Origin: an uncultured Planctomycetaceae bacterium
GTDB taxonomy: Bacteria > Planctomycetota > Planctomycetia > Planctomycetales > Planctomycetaceae
Length of the DNA: 8,651 bases
NCBI GenBank assembly: GCA_903921605.1
Contig: CAIXQV010000812.1
Coordinates: forward strand, 1 to 8,651
Direction: 5' to 3'
The notes below the pieces were generated by a model. That model ran no database searches. It was not told the origin of the DNA and saw only the letters and a program-made list of their open reading frames with translations. Of this stretch, positions 615 through 8,557 are shown piece after piece (the first letter of the stretch is position 1; the number at the start of each line of letters is the position of its first letter). The position numbers and the translations under genes are program-made.

Positions 615-1466
615 TCACTTCGCCCCGAGCTGCACCAGCGACAATGCCGCGTTGAGATTCCCCGAACGAAATCCTTCCAGATCAATCGTGACAGACCGGA
701 ACCCGAGCGATCGAAAGCGTTCCACCAGCGCCTGTCGAGTTTCTGCGACACAAATCCTCGCGATGGCATTCACTGGCACTTCGATTCTCGCCAGCTCATT
801 CGCCTCGAGTCGCACTCGAAACTCTGAGATCCCAGTTATCTCGCGCAGGAATGCTTCGGCCTGTTCAATCCTGGCGACTCGCTCTTCATTGACCTCAACA
901 CCATAAGCAATTCGACTGGCCAAACACGGCGCGGCGGGTTTCTCTGAGACACTCAAACCCCAGTATCGCGCGAGGGTGCGGACATCCGACTTGTTGAGAT
1001 TCAATTCAATCAACGGACTGCGGATCCCATGGTCTGCAGCGGCTTTCATTCCGGGACGATGATCACCCAGGTCGTCGGCATTGGCTCCGTTGACGATCAA
1101 CACTACCTGCAACTCGGCCAGCTTCTCTGCGGCCAGCGAATACAGTGTGTCTTTGCAATAGAAACATCGGTCTCCCGCATTGCGCCGATATTCGTCGCGA
1201 GAAAACTCATCAGTGGAAATCTCGATGTGGCGAATGCCGATTCTCTCGGCTTCTTCACGAGCAATCGTGCGTTCAATCCCGGCAAGACTCGGACTGACGG
1301 CTGTCACGGCCACAGCCTGAGAGCCCCACGCCTCATAAGCCGCCTTCGCAACAACCGCGCTGTCGACCCCGCCGGAATACGCGACAGCAACCGGACCGTA
1401 GGAGCGAATGGTGTCTACAAGCCGTGACGCGGTATCAGCCACGGTATGCGGGATTGTTTGAGTCAT
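615..1466 (-). CDS. larE: ATP-dependent sacrificial sulfur transferase LarE-like protein
   Basis: This 283-residue protein belongs to the PP-loop ATP pyrophosphatase family. LarE adenylates a carboxylate of the pyridinium dicarboxylate precursor and inserts sulfur during synthesis of the nickel-pincer cofactor of lactate racemase-type enzymes, in the cytoplasm. The ATP-binding SGGVDS motif is at residues 31-36, D-D-L-G-D-H-R-P-G-M at 131-140, the cysteine-bearing motif P-C-L-A-S-R-I at 180-186, and a LarE-type G-F-R-S-G near 265-269. Length fits the family (about 270-290). Three cysteines stand at key places: C101 and C104 in R-C-F-Y-C-K and C181 in P-C-L-A-S-R. C181 matches by eye the sacrificial cysteine of Lactiplantibacillus LarE; the added pair suggests the iron-sulfur type of LarE. 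Only ATG 1466 places a short N-terminal helix before the PP-loop; no Shine-Dalgarno is visible. No larB, larC or larA lies within the window. Alternative: another member of the NAD synthase/GuaA-like PP-loop group, less likely given P-C-L-A-S-R. Confidence 0.9.
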   Translation of the reverse strand: MTQTIPHTVADTASRLVDTIRSYGPVAVAYSGGVDSAVVAKAAYEAWGSQAVAVTAVSPSLAGIERTIAREEAERIGIRHIEISTDEFSRDEYRRNAGDRCFYCKDTLYSLAAEKLAELQVVLIVNGANADDLGDHRPGMKAAADHGIRSPLIELNLNKSDVRTLARYWGLSVSEKPAAPCLASRIAYGVEVNEERVARIEQAEAFLREITGISEFRVRLEANELARIEVPVNAIARICVAETRQALVERFRSLGFRSVTIDLEGFRSGNLNAALSLVQLGAK

Positions 1467-1837: not shown

Positions 1838-3190
1838 GTGCTAAACATCGTCAGTCATCCCTCGGGTCGCCGCCAGTTCTGTGACGGGGTTTCTCGCCGA
1901 CGAATGCTGCAAATCGGATCTCTGGGTACGTTTGGTCTCTCACTGCCAGGTTTGCTGCAGGCCGAACAGTCGGGCCTGGTCCATCCCTCTGCACGATCGA
2001 AGAAGTCGGTCATTCTGGTTTGGATGCATGGCGGTCCGTCGCAGCTTGATACGTTCGATATGAAGCCCGCGGCTCCTCGAGAATATCGCGGACCGTTTTC
2101 GCCGATCGCATCGTCACTGCCAGGTTTGGAAGTTTGCGAACTTCTCCCGGAACACGCGAAGGTGATGGATAAGTGCACCGTCATCCGCAGTTTCTCTCAC
2201 GGCAACGGCGATCATTGGGCGGCCGCTCATTGGATGCTGACAGGTCGTCTTGGTGCCAACGGCAGTGATCGCAAACCTCGCTATCCTTCGATGGGAGCTG
2301 TCGCGTCACACTTACTTGGTCCAACTCAGCCCGGAGCCTTGGCCAATGTCAATATGAACGATGGAGGTTTCGGCTTTCATGGTGGAGCGTGGCTGGGCGT
2401 CAATACGAATCCGTTCCGCTATGGAGACTTCAGCTACGGCAATGAAGCCGGTCAACTGCCGACCGGGGACCATAAAAGTTTTTCACTCACCGATGGTCTG
2501 TCGCGCGATCGCATGATGGATCGAGTTTCTCTTCGCGGTCAGCTTGATGGCTTGAAGAAACAGATCGATCGCAATCGCTTGTTCGAGCAGATGGATGCCG
2601 TCGATCATCAGGCCATGGATCTGGTTCTCTCCGGCCGCGTTCGTCGCGCGTTTGATGTGACGGAAGAAGATGCTGCACTGCGAGAACGATACGGTGCGGG
2701 CTGGGGTGAGCAGGCCTTGCTGGCTCGCCGCCTGATCCAGGCCGGAGTTCGCTATGTCTCGCTGAACACGGGTTACTTCGACGACCATTCCAATATCACC
2801 GGAGCATTGAACGACAAGTTGCCTCGCCATGACCGCGCGGTCGGAGTGCTGATTCAGGATCTCGCCGAGCGCGGAATGCTGGATGACACGTTAGTCGTTG
2901 TGGCTGGTGAATTTGGACACACGCCAAGAATCAACGACAACGCTGGGCGAGATCACTGGCCGCAGGCTCAAAGCATTCTGCTGGCCGGCGGTGGCTACCG
3001 TCATGGCCAGGTCATTGGCGCGACCAACGACAAGGCGGAATTCCCAACTGACCGCAAGATCGGCGTCGAAGACTTCTGCGCAATCGTCTATCACGCCATG
3101 GGGCTCAAAGTGGATGATACGATTTTCGATCTGACTGGTCGGCCGACGCATCTCATCCCCGGCGGTGAAGTGCCGTTTGAATTGCTGTGA
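1838..3190 (+). CDS. DUF1501 family exported protein (sulfatase-like fold)
   Basis: This 450-residue protein carries an N-terminal twin-arginine signal: S-R-R-R-M-L-Q-I-G at residues 19-27, then a hydrophobic stretch to about residue 42 ending L-L-Q-A-E. It is therefore expected to be exported folded by Tat. The mature part matches the DUF1501 family (PF07394), placed in the alkaline phosphatase/sulfatase superfamily. Visible family motifs are W-M-H-G-G-P-S-Q-L-D at 62-71, G-D-H-W at 124-127 with H-W-M-L-T-G-R at 131-137, G-E-F-G-H-T-P-R at 357-364 and G-R-D-H-W-P at 370-375; the C-terminus has D-L-T-G-R-P. The Asp/His-rich motifs suggest metal binding, but no substrate is known for the family. 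Length is typical. In planctomycetes such genes usually follow a DUF1549/DUF1553 cytochrome-like gene; here that partner is absent and the gene stands alone. GTG start chosen because of the Shine-Dalgarno and signal peptide. Confidence 0.92.
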   Translation: MLNIVSHPSGRRQFCDGVSRRRMLQIGSLGTFGLSLPGLLQAEQSGLVHPSARSKKSVILVWMHGGPSQLDTFDMKPAAPREYRGPFSPIASSLPGLEVCELLPEHAKVMDKCTVIRSFSHGNGDHWAAAHWMLTGRLGANGSDRKPRYPSMGAVASHLLGPTQPGALANVNMNDGGFGFHGGAWLGVNTNPFRYGDFSYGNEAGQLPTGDHKSFSLTDGLSRDRMMDRVSLRGQLDGLKKQIDRNRLFEQMDAVDHQAMDLVLSGRVRRAFDVTEEDAALRERYGAGWGEQALLARRLIQAGVRYVSLNTGYFDDHSNITGALNDKLPRHDRAVGVLIQDLAERGMLDDTLVVVAGEFGHTPRINDNAGRDHWPQAQSILLAGGGYRHGQVIGATNDKAEFPTDRKIGVEDFCAIVYHAMGLKVDDTIFDLTGRPTHLIPGGEVPFELL

Positions 3191-3378
3191 GAAATTTATG
3201 ACCTCATCAGCCGCGTGGCGTTGATGCGATGTTGCCTCCCCCCCCTGAGCCTGCCTCACGGGCCTGCGGGCCTTTGCACAACCACAATGTTTCTGTTTCC
3301 GCTGGTGCAAAAGCCAGTAAACCCCCGACGCAGGGGCGGGGGCGGGTAAGTCAACAGAACGATGGCGGTTTCTGCAAA

Positions 3379-3588
3379 TTATTCACGAGCATCGCTCAAA
3401 AACGCCTCTTTCAGAACTGCCCTGTTCATCCAGTTTAGCATCACGGGCTGTTCGGTTCCCAGGCGGCGTTTTGTTCGGTAAAGTTTGGCCGTGGGGGGCA
3501 CTTCAATGAACGCTGTCGACAGCCATGATGGAAAAGAGTTCCATCGGAGTGGCTGATGGCGGAAGGCCCAGGACGGATTCGTGTTCAT
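3379..3588 (-). CDS. Doubtful small hypothetical protein, 69 residues
   Basis: This is an open frame with ATG at 3588 and TAA at 3379-3381, divergent from the citrate-synthase-like gene and only 23 bp from its start. It does not overlap any real gene, which distinguishes it from the shadow frames elsewhere. The product is basic, has four Trp, and has no membrane segment, signal peptide or domain that I recognise. No Shine-Dalgarno is seen. Its codon choice is not obviously unlike that of its neighbours. It may be a genuine small planctomycete protein, part of a dispersed repeat, or chance. I give it low confidence and assign no function. Confidence 0.25.
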   Translation of the reverse strand: MNTNPSWAFRHQPLRWNSFPSWLSTAFIEVPPTAKLYRTKRRLGTEQPVMLNWMNRAVLKEAFLSDARE

Positions 3589-3594
3589 GAAGAA

Positions 3595-3601
3595 GAAGGG
3601 A
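3595..3601 (+). promoter_or_regulatory. Probable Shine-Dalgarno site of the citrate-synthase-like gene
   Basis: GAAGGGA lies 10 nt before ATG 3612. An out-of-frame ATG at 3587 opens a six-codon frame (M-K-K-K-G-I) that ends at TGA just before the real start; it could be a tiny leader peptide or chance. Confidence 0.4.
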
Positions 3602-3611
3602 ATCTGACTTT

Positions 3612-4775
3612 ATGGATCAATCAGCACTGCCGGCGGCTCATCTTGTGAATGGGCTGCGACGTCTGGTGGATGATATTCGCAGAAACGAAATTGCAGGTTC
3701 GCGCGGACTCACGGATGTTGTCTGCGGCACGACGACTCTTCTGACCTATGGTGACGCAGGAGTTCATTACTGCGGCTATGCTGTCGAAGATCTGATCCAG
3801 ATGCACTCGTTTGAGCATGTGATCTGGCTCTTGCTGCACCAGAGCCTGCCCACCGAAGAAGAAATGGCGGACTGCAGTTCCATCATTGCCGACTCCGCGG
3901 TTATTGATGAGTCGACAACCGAGATACTGGCACGACTCCCTGTTGGCGCGCGGCCGCTGGATTTGTTTCCACTCTGTCTCTCGCTGCTTTCTTTTTTTGA
4001 TCCGACACCATGCGACAGCAATGACGAAAGCGCGAGAACTCGAGTGCTTCGTTTGCTGGCGCAATTGCCACTGATTATTTCCTCCGCACTGGGTGATTCG
4101 ACAGACATCGCGGCCTTGTCTTCGACGCAACTGTCAGCGGACGAGACTGAACTCACATGGGCCGGGCGTCTGTTGTGTCGACTGCGAGGAACTGAAGAGC
4201 GTCCTTCGGCCGCTGAAGATGCGGCCATGAATGCGCTGATGATTTGCGAATGCCTCACGGAAATGCGTCCGGCGTGTTTTACGGCACGGTTTGCGGCCAG
4301 CACGACGACTCACATTGTTCCGGTGCTGCAGTCGGCCGCGTCGCTGTTTGTTTCTCAACTTCGGAATGACCCGTTTCTGTGGACCAGCGATCTGCTGAAA
4401 GGATTCCTGAATCCGGGACAGGTTGAGGCGTGGTGGCGGCGGCGAGAAGGTCAGCCAATGCCGTTCGGTTTTGCGGCGGCTTCCGAGGACAATCGTGCGT
4501 CGCTGCTGACAGAAACTTGCCGCACAATGCTGGGAAGTATCGATAGAATCCGCGTAGAGGCGGCTGCGGCTCGCCTGGAAAAGCTTCAGGCTCAGGAACA
4601 GCGAGTTCCCACGACCGACTGGGCTGCGGCTCGCCTGATGACGCTGCTGGATATTCCGGCCGATCGGCAGGCCCTGGTGATCGTCATGGCCAGACTTGTG
4701 GGCTGGGCCGCTCAGGCAATTGAACAGCAATCGTCTGGCATTAGCCTGCTTCCCGCTCTACGCTACGGGACTTGA
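3612..4775 (+). CDS. Citrate-synthase-like protein lacking most catalytic residues
   Basis: This 387-residue protein has the overall plan of bacterial citrate synthase/2-methylcitrate synthase (about 370-430 residues). The N-terminal part is well kept: G-L-T-D-V-V-C-G-T-T at 32-41, C-G-Y-A-V-E-D-L at 54-61, S-F-E-H-V at 66-70, L-L-L-H-Q-S-L-P-T at 73-81 and L-P-V-G-A-R-P-L-D at 109-117, where citrate synthases have L-P-x-x-A-H-P-M-D. The C-terminal signature M-A-R-L-V-G-W-A-A-Q is at 359-368. The active site is not kept. The H-A-D-H-E segment reads C-E-C-L-T-E (212-217), the G-P-L-H-G-G segment reads S-Q-L-R-N-D (248-253), and G-F-G-H-R-V-Y reads P-F-G-F-A-A-A-S (284-291) before D-N-R-A (293-296). 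Of the catalytic triad only the Asp (D336, T-T-D-W) is visible. These alignments are by eye. The frame is intact, so this looks like a maintained pseudoenzyme or a changed activity, not a decayed gene. It is separated from thrC downstream by a terminator-like repeat. Confidence 0.8.
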   Translation: MDQSALPAAHLVNGLRRLVDDIRRNEIAGSRGLTDVVCGTTTLLTYGDAGVHYCGYAVEDLIQMHSFEHVIWLLLHQSLPTEEEMADCSSIIADSAVIDESTTEILARLPVGARPLDLFPLCLSLLSFFDPTPCDSNDESARTRVLRLLAQLPLIISSALGDSTDIAALSSTQLSADETELTWAGRLLCRLRGTEERPSAAEDAAMNALMICECLTEMRPACFTARFAASTTTHIVPVLQSAASLFVSQLRNDPFLWTSDLLKGFLNPGQVEAWWRRREGQPMPFGFAAASEDNRASLLTETCRTMLGSIDRIRVEAAAARLEKLQAQEQRVPTTDWAAARLMTLLDIPADRQALVIVMARLVGWAAQAIEQQSSGISLLPALRYGT

Positions 4776-4787
4776 GGCCGTTGATTT

Positions 4788-4864
4788 AATTAGCCGGAAC
4801 GCGTTAGCGTCCGGTTTTTCTGCAAAGCTGAAAAGAACCTTGGGCTAACGCCCGGCGGCTAATT
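4788..4864. repeat. Composite palindromic element, two head-to-head hairpin units
   Basis: A 77-bp element is bounded by a perfect 9-bp inverted repeat (AATTAGCCG at 4788-4796, CGGCTAATT at 4856-4864). Inside are two hairpins: one centred on GCGTTAGCG (about 4795-4814) and one on GGGCTAACGCCC (4842-4853). The right unit read as its reverse complement aligns with the left unit through the shared GCTAACGC core and the CGGCTAATT end. The stem bases differ but remain paired within each unit. The arrangement resembles bacterial interspersed mosaic elements (paired REP sequences). A single copy of the left unit recurs at 7251-7286. Confidence 0.8.
4793..4819 (+). terminator. Terminator-like hairpin after the citrate-synthase-like gene
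   Basis: This is the left unit of the composite repeat. CCGGA and CGC pair with GCG and TCCGG around loop GTTA with one bulged A, and five T follow on the + strand (4815-4819). It starts 17 bp after the stop codon at 4775. It probably ends that transcript and uncouples thrC, although the bulge makes it weaker than the one at 483-517. Confidence 0.5.
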
Positions 4865-4932
4865 GAACAACAGGTCAACAACGCGCTTGAGACCGTCGTT
4901 ACTAACGAGTTCCTTTTTCATTCTGGTTTTCC

Positions 4933-6321
4933 ATGTCAGTTGCATTTCAGCAGTGTATCCATCCCGATTGCGCGGCCACTTACGATGTTGGCCAAATCCT
5001 TACGGCATGCCCGAAGTGCGGCGGCCTGCTGGACGTCACGTATGACTGGAATGCCGTACCGGTTCCAAAGTCGCTTTCGGAATTCGAACGCCGCTGGACG
5101 ACACGACTGAATCCCGTCGACTACAGCGGTGTTTGGCGATTTCGAGAACTGCTGCCATTCGCCACCGATGAGCAAATCGTCACAATCGGCGAAGGCCAGA
5201 CCATTCTGCAGAAGAACGACAAGCTTGCGCGCCAGTGCGACATGAAAGCCGGTCACCTCTTCCTGCAATACGAAGGCATGAACCCTTCAGGCAGCTTTAA
5301 AGATAACGGAATGACAGCCGCATCGACTCATGCTCGCATGGTCGGTGCAAAGATGACGGCCTGTGCTTCGACGGGAAACACCAGTGCGTCGCTGGCGATC
5401 TATGCGGGCGTCACCGGACATTTTCAGTGCATCGTCTTTGTCGGCAGCGGCAAGATTGCTTTCGGCAAGTTATCACAGGCACTGGACTATGGAGCAAAGA
5501 CGATTCAGATTCGAGGTGACTTCGATGACGCTCTGGCACGCGTGCGAGACATCTGTGCGAAGCACCCGATTTATCTTTGCAACAGTGTGAATCCATTTCG
5601 ACTCGAAGGTCAGAAAACAATCATGCTGCGAGTTCTCGAGGGACTCGGTTGGCAGGTGCCAGACTGGATTGTGGTCCCGGGTGGAAATCTTGGAAACAGC
5701 AGCGCGTTCGGCAAAGCCTTTATGGAACTGAAGGCACTGGGGCTGATTGATCGCGTTCCTCGGTTGGCAATCATCAATGCGTCCGGAGCCGATACTCTCG
5801 ATGAGTTCGTAAATGACGGCAAACTGGTCTGGAACGGTGGTCGTCCGAATGCCGATCAGATTTCCGGCCGCTACACCACCATGGATCGTGACAACGAACG
5901 AGCCTCCACTTTGGCCAGTGCGATTGAGATTAATCGTCCGGTGAATCTTGAGAAAGCTCTGCGAGCACTCTCCGTCTGTAACGGTATCGTGCGAAAAGTC
6001 TCGGATCAGGAAATCATCGATTCACGTGCTCGAATTGCTGCCACGGGTTTCGGATGCGAACCGGCCAGCGGTGCCACGATCGCTGGCGTGCTTAAACTGC
6101 GAAAAGAAGGCGTGATTCAGGCGGATGATCGAGTCGTCTGTATCCTGACTGGACATCAGTTGAAGGATCCCGACCTGACCATGGCCTACCATTCGGGCGA
6201 TCCTCAGTTGATGAGCAAAAAGCTGACTCCAGCCGGAGTCACTTCAACGCCGTTCGCGAATCCACCAGTCGTCGTTGATAATGACGAAGTCGCGATCCTG
6301 AAGGCACTTGGGCTGGCGTAG
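4933..6321 (+). CDS. thrC: Threonine synthase (PLP-dependent)
   Basis: Threonine synthase converts O-phospho-L-homoserine and water to L-threonine and phosphate, the last step of threonine synthesis, in the cytoplasm. The 462-residue product is a fold-type II PLP enzyme. The PLP lysine is K123 in [11 protein letters not shown] (117-127), with G-E-G-Q-T at 86-90 as the usual substrate-side motif. A-S-T-G-N-T-S-A-S lies at 145-153, the phosphate-binding loop G-G-N-L-G-N at 250-255, and the late L-T-G-H at 405-408. Residues 8-29 contain four Cys (C8, C13, C26, C29, the last two as C-P-K-C), forming a probable N-terminal zinc ribbon, as in many class of ThrC that are longer than the shortest forms. 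ATG 4933 is chosen because it keeps that ribbon; no good Shine-Dalgarno precedes it. No hom or thrB is adjacent. Cysteate or related synthases share the fold, but the motifs fit ThrC best. The gene converges on exbB with 4 bp between stop codons. Confidence 0.93.
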
Positions 6322-7129: not shown

Positions 7130-7321
7130 CCTGACATTCCGTTGCCATGTGGGTCGAAGTCATCAACGTTGAGAAGTGTTGTAGTGTAGACGAACCTGAC
7201 GAAAACTCGACGGTGATTCCGCAGCGGCCGGGAAAAGGGGCCGGAACCTTTTGAATTAATCAGCCGGAACGCGTTAGCGTCCGGTTCTCATTTCAGAGCC
7301 GCTGATCTCCGTGGATCACTG
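7130..7321. other. Gap between the second DUF1501 gene and exbB
   Basis: This 192-bp gap lies between two minus-strand genes. It should hold the exbB promoter in its left half and contains the palindromic repeat 7251-7286 in its right half. I found no convincing promoter boxes and no T-run on the minus strand after the repeat. Confidence 0.5.
7251..7286 (+). repeat. Second copy of the palindromic repeat unit
   Basis: The 36 bp match 4781-4816 with only two differences (positions 5 and 11 of the block). The hairpin CCGGAACGC-GTTA-GCGTCCGG is fully kept. Unlike the first copy it lacks the T-run and the mirrored second unit. It lies 35 bp beyond the stop codon of the second DUF1501 gene (minus strand), so it may form that mRNA's 3' end. 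Confidence 0.85.
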
Positions 7322-8557
7322 TCAACTCCGGAAGACATCAACCGGCTTGAAATCGCCCTTCAGAATCTTGCCGGATTCGCACTGAAACCAATTCTCTATG
7401 ACAGCCGCGTAGACCTGCCGAAAATCGGTGTGATGCTGGATGTCCCCGTCTTTGAGCTTTTGCAGACTCGGCAATTCTCCGACGAGGCCACTCTTCACAG
7501 AATTACCGGCAAGAAACATGGGGCCGGCTGTCCCGTGGTCGGTGCCTTCGCTGGCATTCTCTTCAACTCGTCGACCAAACTCGCTGAACGCCATCACGGT
7601 GACAGCATCAGACTTTTTCATCTGATCCACGTCATCCAGAAAGGCCTTCACGGAATCGCCAAGCTGCCGGAGCAATCCCTCGTGAGCCCCGGGTTGCTGG
7701 GAATGAGTATCGAATCCGTTGAGTTGCAGATAGTAGATCGACGTCTTAAGACCGGAACTCATCAGCCTGGCAACGGTCTGCAGTTGTTCGCCCAGTCCGT
7801 TCTTTGGATACGTTACAGTCGAAGCATAGGACTTACCGGTGGAACTCAGGCGCTCACTGGCCGTGATCGCGGAGCTTGTGCTGGACTGCACAAAGTTCAG
7901 CAGGTCGTTGCCTTCACCTCGCCGGGCGTCTGCCAGCTCCTGAACGGCTTTGCGAAAGTCCGCATCGTCGGCTCCCTGTAGTCGAAACTGTTCCAGTGAG
8001 CGAATGGAAGGCACGCGAACCTTTCGCGACATCACAGAGAACGGCTGTTTGTCGTGCCCCAGATGCAACGCAGCCGGATCTCCGCCATCGGCGTCTGTTT
8101 GCTCCTCAAGAAATCGTCCCAACCAGCCGTCGGTGCGAATATCATTCTTTCGCTGACACGTATGCCAGATATCCATCGACTCAAAGTGTGAGCGATTTGG
8201 ATCCGGGTATCCGACTCCCTGAACAATCGCCAGCTTGCCGGCTTCAAGTAGATCTGCGAATCCTCGCAACGCGGAATGGAATCCAAGCTCTCCGTTAATG
8301 GCCAAAGTGTCGCTCTTTGCGACCGCGAGTTTGGGACGCAGCTTGCGGTATGTCTCATCGGCAAACGGAACCACGGTGTTCAGGCCGTCGTTTCCTCCGG
8401 CCAGTTCAATCACCACGAGCACTCGTTCTGAGTTTGCGCCACTGCTTGCCGCGCGAACTGCAGCTTGCTGCAAAACAACGGGAGCAAATCCGCCGAATGT
8501 CAGAACAGCAGAACCCGCGGAATTCTTCAGAAACGATCTGCGAGAGTTTTGTGCCAT
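7322..8557 (-). CDS. DUF1501 family exported protein, second subfamily
   Basis: This 411-residue protein begins with a short Tat-type signal: S-R-R-S-F-L-K at residues 5-11, then a hydrophobic stretch to about 35 ending A-V-R-A-A. Recognisable DUF1501 features are V-I-E-L-A-G-G-N-D-G-L-N-T-V-V-P at 49-64, G-F-H at 92-94, H-F-E-S-M-D-I-W at 124-131, G-F-D-T-H at 281-285, F-S-E-F-G-R-R-V at 324-331 and T-D-H-G at 339-342 followed by P-M-F-L-A-G. The AGGNDGLN motif and shorter length set it apart from the DUF1501 protein at 1838-3190, which has the H-G-G-P form. Genes of this subfamily commonly sit beside a DUF1800 gene; any such partner would lie beyond the right edge. The frame stays open upstream of ATG 8557 but contains no ATG, GTG or TTG start there, and the Tat motif sits at the right distance from 8557. 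The substrate is unknown; export to the periplasm is inferred from the signal. Confidence 0.92.
   Translation of the reverse strand: MAQNSRRSFLKNSAGSAVLTFGGFAPVVLQQAAVRAASSGANSERVLVVIELAGGNDGLNTVVPFADETYRKLRPKLAVAKSDTLAINGELGFHSALRGFADLLEAGKLAIVQGVGYPDPNRSHFESMDIWHTCQRKNDIRTDGWLGRFLEEQTDADGGDPAALHLGHDKQPFSVMSRKVRVPSIRSLEQFRLQGADDADFRKAVQELADARRGEGNDLLNFVQSSTSSAITASERLSSTGKSYASTVTYPKNGLGEQLQTVARLMSSGLKTSIYYLQLNGFDTHSQQPGAHEGLLRQLGDSVKAFLDDVDQMKKSDAVTVMAFSEFGRRVEENASEGTDHGTAGPMFLAGNSVKSGLVGELPSLQKLKDGDIQHHTDFRQVYAAVIENWFQCESGKILKGDFKPVDVFRS

Follow-up and report, generated by a model that had tools for sequence, protein, structure and literature searches.

A citrate-synthase-like protein with a replaced and conserved active site, usually encoded beside thrC in planctomycetes

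Citrate synthase is a central enzyme, and a probable misnaming of proteins in its family matters. An 8,651-nucleotide stretch of DNA from an uncultured Planctomycetaceae bacterium (here, the window) carries an open reading frame for a protein of this family in which the histidines used to make citrate are replaced, raising the question of what such a protein does. A first-pass annotation based on the sequence alone had described it as an apparent pseudoenzyme. In this paper, we report a computational analysis of the active site, the relatives and the genomic setting of this protein. The annotated features of the window are as follows.

615-1466, minus strand: LarE-type ATP-dependent sacrificial sulfur transferase (TIGR00268, 286 bits)
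1838-3190, plus strand: DUF1501 protein (PF07394)
3612-4775, plus strand: citrate-synthase-like pseudoenzyme, 387 amino acids (ATG to TGA, 387 uninterrupted codons)
4933-6321, plus strand: thrC, threonine synthase, 462 amino acids, the downstream neighbour (TIGR00260, 237.6 bits, cut-off 167.1)
7322-8557, minus strand: DUF1501 protein (PF07394)

A 36-bp repeat with a palindromic core (CCGGAACGCGTTAGCGTCCGG) is present in two copies, one in the gap before thrC (4781-4816) and one in the gap between a MotA/ExbB-type gene and a DUF1501 gene (7251-7286). The first copy and positions 4833-4867 form an imperfect inverted repeat, and the element looks like a REP-type intergenic element.

Fold and active-site residues

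Residues 32-375 of the window protein match PF00285 at 144.1 bits (cut-off 27), covering Pfam profile positions 1-350 of 357, and this full-length match above the gathering score places the protein in the citrate synthase superfamily, with the citrate synthase fold. The protein fails the cut-off of TIGR01800 (citrate synthase II) with 122.2 against 421.3 bits; a planctomycete paralogue not linked to thrC (L037) clears the same model at 460.6 bits. Residue pairs were taken from sequence alignments, using the numbering of the mature Escherichia coli GltA, and the structure model was compared by ranges only. In the E. coli enzyme we take H264, H305 and D362 to be catalytic and H229, R314, R387 and R407 to be oxaloacetate ligands. 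The corresponding parts of the window gene are given below.

4245-4289, plus strand: block C212-R226 (CECLTEMRPACFTAR), replaces the HExN block; T216 stands at H229 and R219 at N232
4356-4382, plus strand: block Q249-W257 (QLRNDPFLW), replaces GPxHGGAN; R251 stands at H264
4458-4472, plus strand: block M283-F287 (MPFGF), replaces MGFGH; gap at G304-H305 in 24 of 24 family rows
4494-4496, plus strand: R295, equivalent to R314, kept (70 of 70 aligned rows; 90 of 90 family proteins)
4617-4619, plus strand: D336, equivalent to the catalytic D362, kept (in all 24 family rows and in 89 of the 90 family proteins)
4692-4694, plus strand: R361, equivalent to R387, kept (70 of 70 aligned rows; 90 of 90 family proteins)
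4746-4766, plus strand: C-terminal block L379-Y385 (LLPALRY), with L380 at the lost R407

The three segments reported by the first-pass annotation as replaced (CECLTE, SQLRND and PFGFAAAS) are indeed present in the window protein and lie in the blocks that bear H229, H264 and H305 in E. coli. Its statement that only the catalytic aspartate remains was correct for D336 but too narrow, since R295 and R361 are also kept. Two of the three catalytic residues are missing, with R251 at H264 and no histidine at H305, and among the four oxaloacetate ligands R314 and R387 are kept, H229 has become T and R407 has become L. H305 can be placed in two ways: MAFFT sets F287 at F303 and leaves G304-H305 in a gap in all 24 family rows, with the loop to R295 three residues shorter, and the alternative sets F285 at F303 and F287 at H305, which shortens this loop by one residue. 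From F287 to R295 there are nine residues in 111 of 115 proteins.

All 24 family rows have lost H229, H264, H305 and R407, and the alignments hold no conserved histidine in place of H264 or H305. Across 115 full-length family proteins no column exceeds 74% histidine, the most histidine-rich being H10 in a low-confidence N-terminal stretch; a histidine occurs somewhere between F287 and R295 in 12 proteins, scattered and none of them conserved (position 288 in three). Seven sequences whose active site is intact share 61 invariant columns; the 24 family rows conserve 21 of these at 90% or more, and many of the losses fall in the active-site blocks.

A still-active citrate or methylcitrate synthase with an unusual residue set would agree with the retention of D336, R295 and R361 and with single relatives that have a histidine at 216 (P0103) or at 288. 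This reading is nevertheless very improbable given the four residues lost in every family row and the distance to the 421-bit cut-off; mutating these histidines cripples characterised citrate synthases. That the protein does not make citrate in the usual way, as the first-pass annotation held, we consider very likely.

Conservation, selection and genome distribution

A protein search returned 141 significant relatives, with 46-99% identity among the 120 matches listed. They are mostly named 'citrate synthase' or 'citrate/2-methylcitrate synthase' in the databases ('hypothetical protein' in two of the matches listed), and the naming as citrate synthase is very probably wrong. The substitutions are conserved in 90 non-redundant full-length relatives, in which T occupies position 216 in 89, F287, R295 and R361 never vary, R219, R226, Q249, D253, P254, W257, W274, R278, P284 and G286 each reach at least 99%, N252 stands at 97% and R251 is R in just 74. 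N252, D253 and P254 are found in all 24 family rows. Single exceptions are H at 216 (P0103), R at 380 (P0117) and E at 336 (P0080). The former active-site blocks are more conserved than the remainder of the protein (mean 0.76 against 0.64; one-sided p 0.0003 with columns treated as independent). Because the catalytic histidines are replaced by a new and highly conserved residue set, the family very probably serves another function now.

Purifying selection on the gene is strong. Between the window gene and three copies in metagenome-assembled genomes (MAGs) dN/dS was 0.022, 0.024 and 0.040, and between two of the MAG copies 0.062, with thrC at 0.011-0.038 in the same four close pairs. Seven more distant family pairs, in which dS above about 0.7 is partly saturated, gave 0.065-0.131, against 0.028-0.067 for thrC in the four measured. 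As the family value exceeds that of thrC in seven of the eight pairs with both measured, the pseudoenzyme gene is well guarded, though less so than thrC. The loss of catalytic residues could also be read as a decaying pseudogene or a sequencing artefact, but the window and the MAGs L001 and L003 have an intact frame, dN/dS stays at 0.02-0.13 in all 11 pairs and the replacement motifs are conserved, leaving this reading with hardly any probability. Frameshift and decay were rejected on the intact frames and dN/dS, as the first-pass annotation had expected for a frameshift. The record title of L001 assigns this MAG to 'Candidatus Kuenenia stuttgartiensis'. That title looks wrong: L001 resembles the window and the Planctomycetales MAG L003 in gene content, and its genome (G001) falls in the same order as G003.

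Three MAGs hold the pseudoenzyme gene at 97-99% identity, and each has exactly two PF00285 matches, namely the pseudoenzyme and a type-I GltA of 429 amino acids. This GltA (L004-L006) has intact active-site residues, lies on another contig than the pseudoenzyme and scores 87-88 bits against the pseudoenzyme family profile. The family is present in 27 of 150 genomes of the order at 246 bits or above (next best match, 219), in one of them as a contig-edge fragment, and in three of 392 genomes drawn from the phylum at E 1e-70, all three already among the 27.

Together, the conserved replacement motifs, the purifying selection and the canonical gltA elsewhere in the three genomes with near-identical copies strongly support a maintained pseudo-citrate-synthase. 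The first-pass annotation had further suggested that it may be a regulatory subunit of the true citrate synthase, an acyl-CoA binder or an enzyme with a new reaction. A regulatory or assembly role in a heteromer with that enzyme would suit the shared fold and the canonical gltA in three genomes with the same gene; however, the sole other PF00285 protein in these genomes is the distant type-I GltA, its gene is on another contig and the conserved neighbour of the pseudoenzyme is thrC, which make the proposal improbable. A type-II partner for hetero-oligomers was rejected, as one of the two PF00285 matches per genome in the three genomes is the pseudoenzyme itself.

Linkage to thrC and paralogues in the same slot

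Among the 23 loci that were compared, of which the window, L001 and L003 are near-identical, the pseudoenzyme gene is followed on its own strand by thrC in 17. The loci share little else in gene order, as the next most shared neighbour occurs in only 5 of the 23. When counted by genome, the adjacency expected of a regulator or partner of threonine synthase was found in 19 of the 27 family genomes, with thrC elsewhere in six and not found in two; these counts were made by eye from coordinates, and family matches were taken from the best-scoring end of the match list. In 18 of the 19 loci measured the two genes lie 47-271 bp apart, a spacing that does not establish co-transcription; the value computed for L053 was discarded as an artefact. 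A scan of positions 3190-5000 gave no promoter-like sites and two terminator-like sites against 2.1 expected, both inside coding sequence. One genome (G146; L051) carries the pseudoenzyme-thrC pair twice, on separate contigs, either a duplication or a mixed MAG.

A replacement for a missing homoserine kinase was also considered for the pseudoenzyme and rejected: of the 10 genomes tested, 8 clear the apgM-type model TIGR02535, and the other two (G001 and G002) have matches under the cut-off. Classical thrB was passed in none of the 10, with weak matches in seven.

In another twenty genomes of the order a citrate-synthase-like gene with a lower score stands directly upstream of thrC, and 19 of these were read. 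A further 20 regions upstream of thrC were read: three contain a very divergent citrate-synthase-like gene (G050, G016 and G073), 14 have none, and the remaining three reach a contig edge after 854-1,466 bases with no such gene in the part read; none was found in the L099 region. Altogether, some citrate-synthase-like gene lies directly upstream of thrC in at least 42 of the 150 genomes, and in many others thrC is without such a neighbour.

These slot paralogues form a graded series from intact residues to the loss of all three histidines. H229, H264, H305 and D362 are intact in 14 rows (L061-L063, L065-L075), in which a conserved Trp precedes H305 in the GFGH loop (GFWH) and HGGPG stands for HGGAN; judged from the altered region round H305, the activity of these proteins is doubtful. 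L064 has lost D362, L060 and L101 have lost H264 and D362, and all three histidines are gone in L076-L078, L107, L117 and the window family. D362 is also lost in L076-L078, L107 and L117, the last two being the most degenerate thrC-linked rows (PF00285 at 136 and 124 bits). Among unlinked rows, L037-L039, L082, L086-L089 and L098 keep all four residues and L079, L083-L085 and L090-L097 are without one or more. The intact set is found in 26 of 70 rows, and at least five changes are needed over the 70-row tree.

Five of the unlinked rows (L090-L094) make up a second planctomycete citrate-synthase-like family, in which Y stands at H229, E at D362 and Q at R407, and four of the five lie on contigs of 7.4-7.9 Mb; going by these residues, they are possibly another set of pseudo-citrate-synthases.

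In the tree the window family is one clade (100/100 support). All thrC-type rows fall on one side of a branch with support of 92/85, dropping to 71/15 without seven long rows, so the tree does not establish a single origin, and the joining of the family with L076-L078 is flagged as possible long-branch attraction. Judged from position, a common origin in the thrC slot is likely.

The slot paralogues also bear on a further explanation, in which a neo-functionalised enzyme uses the remodelled pocket (T216, R219, C222, R251, N252, D253, D336, R295 and R361) for other chemistry, with an oxo-acid or acyl compound as substrate and perhaps a place in amino-acid metabolism. The near-constant D336 and the many near-invariant new residues, R251 being less constant, fit catalysis as well as binding. 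Against it, both catalytic histidines are gone with no conserved histidine in their stead, and the aspartate is lost in the slot paralogues L060, L064, L076-L078, L101, L107 and L117, which argues that the shared function of the thrC slot needs no citrate synthase chemistry. We consider such an enzyme rather unlikely, though well worth keeping in view.

A possible role and comparison with known systems

The protein retains its fold, a new conserved set of residues stands where the citrate-making histidines were, selection is strongly purifying and the gene is linked to thrC. The explanation that we tentatively prefer, at somewhat less than even confidence, is a maintained pseudoenzyme derived from a type-II citrate synthase paralogue upstream of thrC and acting as a ligand-binding sensor or partner for threonine synthase or the aspartate-family branch. 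Such a paralogue occupies the place before thrC in many members of a single planctomycete order, and the protein would no longer condense acetyl-CoA with oxaloacetate, with R295, R361 and D336 still binding a small oxo- or dicarboxylate such as oxaloacetate or a related aspartate-family metabolite. The carbon of the aspartate-family branch derives from oxaloacetate, and the protein may adjust threonine synthase or this branch in a role comparable to that of HisZ, an inactive synthetase-like protein that serves HisG. In a more specific form, the protein would be a dedicated metabolite sensor: the oxaloacetate carboxylate clamp (R295 and R361) would have been retained, catalysis would have been lost independently in several lineages, and threonine synthase would be adjusted to how much oxaloacetate-family precursor is available. 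This form is conceivable but unlikely.

Several observations weigh against a sensor or partner. Synteny is not interaction, and thrC is elsewhere or not found in eight of the 27 family genomes as counted above. R314 and R387 may be kept for folding, since they are present in every one of the 70 rows, whether active or inactive. Catalytic residues have also been lost outside the thrC slot, as the unlinked rows attest, the family dN/dS lies mostly above that of thrC, and the clade uniting the thrC-type rows has the weakened support and possible long-branch attraction described above.

A family without the catalytic residues beside thrC, together with same-slot relatives that have them, offers a natural series from enzyme to non-enzyme and indicates a possible link between a node of the TCA cycle and threonine synthesis. 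Judged by titles and abstract openings, a search of open-access papers turned up nothing on a citrate synthase pseudoenzyme in planctomycetes, on the link to thrC or on TCA-to-amino-acid control of this kind. Pseudoenzymes are known as a kind; on the same reading of titles and abstract openings, this family and its setting appear undescribed.

Among known proteins, 2-methylcitrate synthase/citrate synthase II (PrpC; TIGR01800; PDB 6s6f and 6s87) differs in that both catalytic histidines, the oxaloacetate histidine and Arg407 are replaced or missing in the window protein, which scores far below the model cut-off. The type-I GltA of the same genomes belongs to the same Pfam family; unlike the window protein it has all seven active-site residues intact, and it is much more distant in sequence. 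The thrC-linked paralogues with GVWHGG and PGFWHRVY motifs (L061-L063, L065-L075) share the slot and the arginines of the window family but keep H229, H264, H305 and D362 and have Trp for Gly before H305. HisZ and similar pseudoenzyme partners have an unrelated fold, and the likeness would lie only in an inactive enzyme relative serving a biosynthetic enzyme.
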